Both the position numbers and the translations under genes were made by a program. Below, one piece after another: positions 56,692-58,766 of a stretch of DNA of 64,000 nt. Position 1 is the stretch's first letter, and each line of letters begins with the position of its first letter. Below the pieces are notes generated by a model that was not told where the DNA came from, made no database searches, and saw only the letters and a program-made list of their open reading frames with translations. This DNA comes from Lachnospiraceae bacterium (GTDB taxonomy: Bacteria > Bacillota > Clostridia > Lachnospirales > Lachnospiraceae): the NCBI GenBank assembly GCA_016291405.1, contig JAEEXG010000008.1, positions 1-64,000 on the forward strand, given 5' to 3'.

Positions 56692-58128
56692 ATGGGAAAG
56701 AACAGACGTATACTAATTGGAATAATAATCGTAACGACAGTCTTTTTTGCATGCGGTTGTTCATTTAAAGCCGATGAAGTAAATCCTGACAATGCCTTAA
56801 TAAGTGAGACTTCGGTTGATGAAAACCTAGAAGCCGAAAGCAAGCCGAAGTTAGATACCTCGCTTCCTTTTGACGAACTGTTTAAAGAATACGCATCTTC
56901 ACTTGGCGAGACTTATGACTACGGAATTACTTATGCGTATATATCGAATATGAAAGATGGTATCGGCGAAAGTGATAAAGCTGCCATCGCAGAGTTCTTA
57001 AGCAAAGAAGAAAACTCTTACATTCTTGATTTTACCCTCCCCTTAACGGAAGATATTTTTGTGTCAGAAGAAACCGCTCAGCTCACAAAGGATACGGCAA
57101 GAGCATTTGCAGACTATATTCTTGATACTTACGGGGAGGAAGAATTAAAGAAGCTAACCAAATCGAGCGTTAGGGACGAAGAAAAAACACGCCTTAAAAA
57201 TGAATGGCTTAAAACAATCGGAGTGCCTGTAGAGTATACGCCGGCTGCATCGTTTTTCTTTGTAAATAATGAGTCGGAGGATAGGGCTAAATATCCGTAC
57301 TATATCGAAAGTGAAACCTATGACCTGTTCATAGCAACGGAAGATGTTGTGGTGGGGGGGTACAGTGAACTTTTTAAAACATATGAAAAGACAAGCGAGT
57401 ACTGGGAGGAAGATTTAAAAGACGCAAGGGAAAAGTACTTTGGCTTTGACAAAGAAGTTCCGAGAGTAAAAATGTATACTTGCTTTTCCGAAGGTGATTC
57501 CAAGGGAGAAATTCTCGATGCAGAGTATTGGGATAAAAAGATTCGCCTGTTTCGTAATTTCGATGTTGCAACAGAACTTTTCTTACATGAATACACTCAC
57601 CATTTGCAGTTTTCTTCAAATATAAACGCGATGCTTATAAGGCGTGAAACTATCAGCGCAATGGACGAAGGCTACGCGGTGGAATTTGACAACTATGAAT
57701 ACGAAAGGCATGCTTACAATAAGTTTCTTGAAAGCGAAGAACTCGAGTATAGAAATCTTTGGAGCGAAGAAACCGGGCAGTATGACTTTGCCATGTACAA
57801 CGACATGCTTGCTTATTGCGAAGACACAGTGAGTGGTATAGAGTATTACAGCGTATCCCAGACCATGGAAACCACCGGCCCTGGAATTAAGCCATACACC
57901 AAACTTTCCTATCATATGTTAGGTAGCTTTATACATTACTTAAAGCTTACAAAGGGCGAAGAAACCGTTATGGAAGCCTTTGCCGAACCTGAAAAGTTTG
58001 AGGCGCTTTTTGAAGGAGACTACGAGGCGACTTACAAGGCCTGGAGAGAGTGGCTCTATGAAAGAGTGCATTCTGATGAAGAAACCTTGAACAAAATATT
58101 GTTTCATGCCAATGGGAATAATGCTTGA
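56692..58128 (+). CDS. Lipoprotein with HEXXH metallopeptidase motif
   Basis: Lipobox VFFACGCSFK; ATELFLHEYTHHLQFSS, downstream MDEGYAVEF. Confidence 0.75.
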   Translation: MGKNRRILIGIIIVTTVFFACGCSFKADEVNPDNALISETSVDENLEAESKPKLDTSLPFDELFKEYASSLGETYDYGITYAYISNMKDGIGESDKAAIAEFLSKEENSYILDFTLPLTEDIFVSEETAQLTKDTARAFADYILDTYGEEELKKLTKSSVRDEEKTRLKNEWLKTIGVPVEYTPAASFFFVNNESEDRAKYPYYIESETYDLFIATEDVVVGGYSELFKTYEKTSEYWEEDLKDAREKYFGFDKEVPRVKMYTCFSEGDSKGEILDAEYWDKKIRLFRNFDVATELFLHEYTHHLQFSSNINAMLIRRETISAMDEGYAVEFDNYEYERHAYNKFLESEELEYRNLWSEETGQYDFAMYNDMLAYCEDTVSGIEYYSVSQTMETTGPGIKPYTKLSYHMLGSFIHYLKLTKGEETVMEAFAEPEKFEALFEGDYEATYKAWREWLYERVHSDEETLNKILFHANGNNA

Positions 58129-58350: not shown

Positions 58351-58379
58351 TTGACGATATAGGATATATCCTATATACT
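58351..58379 (+). promoter_or_regulatory. Promoter with perfect 20-bp palindromic operator
   Basis: TTGACG-N17-TATACT; ATATAGGATATATCCTATAT (58357-58376) is its own reverse complement. Confidence 0.75.
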
Positions 58380-58396
58380 AATAATCGACAAGACAA

Positions 58397-58477
58397 ATGA
58401 AGTTTCAAGTAGAGTTTTATGAGAAAGAGAGTAAGGAGCAACCGGCCATAGAAGGGAGAAATCATAATGAGCACTAG
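58397..58477 (+). pseudogene. N-terminal remnant of a HigB/RelE-type toxin
   Basis: MKFQVEFYEKESKEQPAIEGRNHNEH*, 26 aa; first ~19 aa look like the start of a HigB-like toxin, then joins the antitoxin RBS. Confidence 0.55.
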
Positions 58478-58766
58478 ATTTGACGACTTTTTGGAAGAGC
58501 AATTAAAGGATGATGAGTTCAGAAAAGAATTTGAAGCCCTTCAACCGGAACATGCAGTTATTCAGGCGATAATAGATGCAAGAAAAGAGTCAGGGCTTAC
58601 GCAAAAGGAACTGGCTGAGAAAACAGGAATTGCACAGGGGGATATCAGCAAAATTGAGAAAGGCTTGGCTAATCCTTCGCTTAAAACGCTTAAACGACTT
58701 GCCCTTGGTATGGGCAAAGTGCTAAAAATCGAGTTTGTATCTATAGAAAACACCATAAAGGGATAG
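58467..58766 (+). CDS. HigA-like XRE-family antitoxin (orphan)
   Basis: EHAVIQAIIDARKESGLTQKELAEKTGIAQGDISKIEKGLANPSLKTLKRLALGMGKVLKIEF. Confidence 0.88.
   Translation: MSTRFDDFLEEQLKDDEFRKEFEALQPEHAVIQAIIDARKESGLTQKELAEKTGIAQGDISKIEKGLANPSLKTLKRLALGMGKVLKIEFVSIENTIKG

Follow-up and report, generated by a model that had tools for sequence, protein, structure and literature searches.

A chromosomal HigBA-type operon in a Lachnospiraceae genome that has lost most of its toxin gene and kept its antitoxin and palindromic promoter site

The window analysed here, a stretch of 64,000 nucleotides from a Lachnospiraceae genome, contains a HigBA module by descent that is not a functional toxin-antitoxin pair. 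Compared directly with the intact orthologous locus of a close relative (L016), most of a HigB/RelE-type toxin gene has been deleted, while the antitoxin gene and the operator have been kept. Our preferred reading, to which we give a probability of about 0.75, is that this is a toxin-deleted chromosomal higBA operon whose antitoxin would still repress its own promoter and could counter an incoming homologous toxin.

Orphan antitoxins are well documented; this is a clear-cut case of the known kind and no new system, and taken alone it is ordinary. Genome surveys often turn up such genes, mostly with no more than a guess at where they come from and what they do. In the present case the comparison of the same locus in two genomes yields the exact event, and the family supplies many independent repeats with the operator in place. 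These repeats allow protection from incoming homologous modules to be tested against mere decay.

The deletion seen against an intact ortholog

In an antitoxin search of 84,980 species genomes the closest relative of the window is L016, from the Lachnospiraceae MAG RUI583; the contig G012:C211, found in the genus search and of equal length (3311 bases), is very probably the contig of L016. The two loci share the upstream DNA, the promoter, the palindrome and the start of the downstream phosphofructokinase gene. In L016 the toxin is intact. It is encoded at 2148-2501, has 117 residues, belongs to the HigB/RelE-type family PF05973 (Gp49, E 2.2e-27), and its stop codon touches the antitoxin start.

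The DNA alignment shows that exactly 283 bp of L016 (2199-2481) are missing from the window. The first-pass annotation had proposed from the window alone that most of the toxin gene was deleted, and had suggested alignment with intact related loci as the way to define the event; both the deletion and its limits are now seen. The junction lies at 58447-58448 on the forward strand, with a microhomology of one base (A). Upstream of it codons 1-17 of the toxin gene remain (MKFQVEFYEKESKEQPA, 58397-58447, forward strand), and 50 of these first 51 bases are identical in L016, with a 95% protein match over residues 1-19. Given 50 identical bases out of 51, the homology of the short open reading frame to the toxin is not due to chance.

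The remnant starts at the ATG at 58397 and is read for 26 codons across the junction (58397-58477, forward strand). The identity to the toxin stops after codon 17 (...EQPA), and residues 18-26 (IEGRNHNEH) are the product of a shifted frame. The stop codon at 58475-58477 is located just inside the antitoxin gene, so that the frame overlaps the start of the antitoxin, the ATG at 58467, by 11 nt. The two ATGs and the 26-codon frame had been annotated and are found in the sequence. The 26-residue peptide is too short for profile (HMM) searches, which give no match, and the DNA alignment to the orthologous locus took their place. The proposed homology to a toxin start therefore holds at the DNA level, and for codons 1-17 only.

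The deletion removed toxin residues 18 to about 111. For HigB of S. pneumoniae the catalytic residues are R68, R73, F90 and K92 (PMC7984235); they align with R62, R71, F88 and K90 of the L016 toxin on the assumption, drawn from the residue types, that a 20-residue tag shifts the numbering of the chain. All four mapped active-site positions fall within the deleted part, and the locus thus lacks a full-length RelE-fold toxin with active-site residues. Further, the genome has no other PF05973 protein, and the toxin finds no second match in an assembly that is 99% complete. The intact antitoxin gene is accordingly an orphan, whose toxin partner is missing both from its neighbourhood and from the rest of the genome. 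The toxin-first order, with an HTH_3 antitoxin directly downstream, is present by descent, as seen from the remnant start and the L016 ortholog.

Some other differences between the two loci can be observed. Ten of the 11 base differences between the antitoxin genes are located in the first 96 bases (58467-58562 versus L016:2501-2596), with one in the rest; this cluster adjoins the deletion junction and is likely a recombination tract. Upstream, a gene for a putative lipoprotein of 478 residues, with no Pfam match, is present in one copy in the window. In L016 the gene is separated from the toxin-antitoxin locus by an extra tandem paralog (L016:383-1927, versus 56692-58128 in the window). A search of the flanking DNA against Rfam gave only sub-threshold matches, which were rejected.

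The antitoxin and its promoter

The antitoxin (58467-58766, forward strand, 99 residues) shares 98% identity with its counterpart in the intact L016 pair. It is a HigA-like protein of the XRE/HTH_3 type: it matches PF01381 (E 1.9e-14), its best PDB match by sequence is HigA of S. pneumoniae (6af3, E 6.5e-9), and the same entry is the top fold match of its structural model (pLDDT 88.6). The L016 toxin also has its best PDB sequence match in the S. pneumoniae HigBA structure 6af3 (E 1.1e-11). The helix-turn-helix is complete, and its conserved recognition region is retained. None of the curated NCBIfam antitoxin models is passed by the protein. A Shine-Dalgarno-like motif for the antitoxin gene (GGGAG, 58453-58457, forward strand), read from the sequence, lies 3' of the deletion and also precedes the antitoxin in L016.

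Upstream of the remnant there is a sigma-70-type promoter (58351-58379, forward strand) with ten of 12 consensus matches, consisting of a -35 box TTGACG (58351-58356), a spacer of 17 nt and a -10 box TATACT (58374-58379). The same promoter/operator block sits at the corresponding position in relatives with an intact toxin. Overlapping this promoter is a perfect 20-bp palindrome, ATATAGGATATATCCTATAT (58357-58376, no strand assigned), which is the predicted operator of the antitoxin. It had been described as lying between the two boxes; the palindrome is indeed perfect and within the promoter, but it occupies the entire spacer and extends three bases into the -10 box. No perfect palindrome in the 64 kb is longer, and the runner-up has 16 bp. 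A search of the 2.8-Mb genome, as recommended in the first-pass annotation, finds no second copy with up to three mismatches, i.e. the site is unique.

The same arrangement recurs in the family. In 59 relatives with an intact toxin the toxin start is usually preceded by TTGACA, a palindrome of the ATATRGGATATATCCYATAT type in the spacer, and TATAAT. A position weight matrix built from 51 of these 59 gives a score of 37.1 to the site in the window, while the next best site in the 64 kb scores 5.3 and 300 random 600-bp segments of the window score at most 1.8. Of 76 intact loci, 66 have a site with a score over 15, located 387-478 bp upstream of the antitoxin. In toxin-broken loci the operator is kept in 18 of 36, there 46-298 bp before the antitoxin. 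Judged by this conservation, the palindrome is the predicted operator of this HigBA family. Since a family-conserved operator lies over the promoter, autoregulation is the expected mode, and it is very likely that the antitoxin in the window acts on its own promoter through the predicted site. In Acinetobacter baumannii HigA needs no partner to repress the promoter of its operon, and HigB is a co-repressor (PMC5906591).

Recurrent loss of the toxin

To see how often the toxin is lost we surveyed 348 genomes of the same family, one per species, with an antitoxin cut-off of 1e-16; an antitoxin-based search of this kind is biased towards loci whose antitoxin can still be recognised. Besides the one in the window, 70 antitoxins pass the cut-off, and 24 of these have no adjacent toxin at that level. 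The converse, a toxin without an antitoxin, is seen in 3 of 49. Three of the 24 (G055:C32, G107:C112 and G019:C64) start too near a contig end to be judged. Four more (L179, L183, L186 and L188) were rejected as orphans, as a DUF4160/DUF2442-HTH gene pair fills the toxin position, partly degraded in L183 and L188. This leaves 17.

The breakpoints vary. Both N-terminal and C-terminal pieces of the toxin are kept in L017 and L040, only an N-terminal piece in the window, L013 and L025, and only a C-terminal piece in L046, L060, L062, L077 and L172, while no recognisable toxin is left in L069, L169, L171 and L175. A tree of 104 antitoxins has 24 toxin-broken rows, among them partial toxins, frameshifted toxins and complete losses; 23 label changes are needed to account for these rows, and the well-supported branches alone force 18. 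On the basis of this tree, the toxin losses are independent events. One sister pair, for instance, consists of the toxin-broken L013 and the intact L015. The toxin-broken antitoxins are all located at or near the tips, and no sizeable clade is toxin-less; the absence of long-lived toxin-broken clades counts against a strongly favoured orphan state.

The toxin-less antitoxin: possible role and alternatives

How might the locus work today? The 283-bp deletion in a chromosomal higBA-type operon spared the promoter, the operator, the ribosome-binding site of the antitoxin and the antitoxin itself. The antitoxin would now head a short transcript whose leader is roughly 80 nt long. It would dimerise on the palindrome and repress its own promoter, and with the toxin co-repressor gone this repression would probably be weaker, giving a steady pool of free antitoxin. 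Perhaps, and here we are less confident, this pool neutralises the toxin of a homologous plasmid or phage, i.e. acts in anti-addiction for as long as it lasts; the orphan state may be short-lived.

Homologous modules do occur on mobile elements. The Ruminococcus albus plasmid pRUMAL04 carries an intact homologous pair whose toxin is 68% identical to that of L016, and homologous intact pairs are also found on viral contigs, the five closest of which carry related toxins (64-68% identity) with operator-like promoter sequences. The viral contigs contain no exact match to the operator pattern; variants are present in the relatives found by the toxin search. Such pairs on mobile elements make it realistic that the antitoxin meets an incoming homologous toxin, and an anti-addiction role is possible. 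Overall, the closest mobile-element toxins share only 60-68% identity with the L016 toxin, and at this distance cross-neutralisation is uncertain. A bolder proposal is that deletion of the toxin alone, with retention of the operator, is a repeated adaptive route by which an addiction module turns into a self-regulated immunity gene against its plasmid and phage homologues. We find this rather unlikely; if true, the independent toxin losses, at least 18 in number, would be evidence for selection, beyond decay alone.

The strongest alternative, which we rate at somewhat below even odds, is that the locus is a plain relic: the deletion is recent, and the antitoxin is now without selection but too young to have decayed. 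The flanking DNA of the window is nearly identical to that of L016, as would fit a recent event. Further, the tip-only distribution, with 23 changes for 24 rows, is also compatible with short-lived relics, and the antitoxins of some toxin-broken loci (G003:C150, G068:C196, G152:C23 and L060) already contain stop codons. Against this stands the pattern of substitutions. For eight toxin-broken antitoxins that could be set against an outgroup and a closely related intact locus, we polarised the changes and found 10 amino-acid to 42 silent changes on the toxin-less branches and 13 to 57 on the paired branches. The two ratios are equal and lie far under the value of about 3.7 to 1 that site counts in the window and L016 pair predict for neutral change. 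It should be noted that every toxin-less branch also spans time before its deletion, so the ratio bounds the period of relaxation and is no proof of later selection. By this count, relaxed selection can only have been confined to a small last part of all eight branches.

In comparison with the preferred reading of a self-repressing antitoxin, its recruitment to control the transcription of other genes is quite improbable. The first-pass annotation had mentioned such a role, the complete helix-turn-helix would allow it, and antitoxins of this type with regulatory roles are known in other systems. However, the genome offers no second full-strength operator, and the degenerate family operator, searched with two mismatches, gives three further weak sites only, compared with one for a reversed control pattern.

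An assembly error, with an intact toxin in the species, is more improbable still. One genome per species underlies the comparison, but the junction sits within a 73-kb contig, its 3' side bears its own substitutions relative to L016, the rest of the toxin is nowhere in the assembly, and similar deletions with other breakpoints are found in many unrelated genomes. Finally, the idea that the 26-codon frame is an independent conserved small protein or a regulatory leader peptide can be dismissed, for although the kept toxin start and the overlapped antitoxin start might allow some translational coupling, in the ortholog this start opens the gene for a 117-residue toxin, the pieces left in other toxin-broken relatives are different ones, and no conservation of the frame at the protein level in several species was found.

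Among known systems HigBA of S. pneumoniae (PDB 6af3/6af4; PMC7984235) resembles the ancestral module in its toxin-first order, in its promoter palindromes, there bound by HigA and HigBA, and in the sequence and fold matches given above. It differs in having four palindromes, whereas the window has one perfect palindrome inside the promoter and no functional toxin. In Klebsiella orphan antitoxins are abundant, and the explanations offered are relic, anti-addiction and regulator (PMC7192599). As in the K. pneumoniae examples (PMC7192599; review PMC7354431), the antitoxin described here is toxin-less in a context of valid pairs; in addition to what that survey gives, related loci across phyla here resolve the exact deletion, the retention of the operator and the repeated losses. 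Anti-addiction is reviewed in PMC7354431, including the chromosomal CcdA of Erwinia chrysanthemi, for which neutralisation of the F-plasmid CcdB has been shown. The antitoxin in the window is likewise chromosomal and could neutralise a homologous incoming toxin, but it is of a different family, and what is demonstrated for CcdA is for it a prediction.

Three minor observations concern related modules. An orphan antitoxin (L021/L165, on G283:C38) shares its contig with an intact, divergent pair of the same family, which lies about 1.3 kb away on the other strand. In a single MAG, Reindeer_2_mag_13, one of two closely related modules is internally deleted (L017) and the other is intact (L024). 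Lastly, the modules at L186:452-1210 and in L179, L183 and L188, in which a DUF4160 gene is followed by a DUF2442 and HTH gene, have the palindromic promoter/operator of the HigBA family and a closely related helix-turn-helix, which suggests that the antitoxin DNA-binding domain and the operator may have been exchanged between two unrelated types of module.
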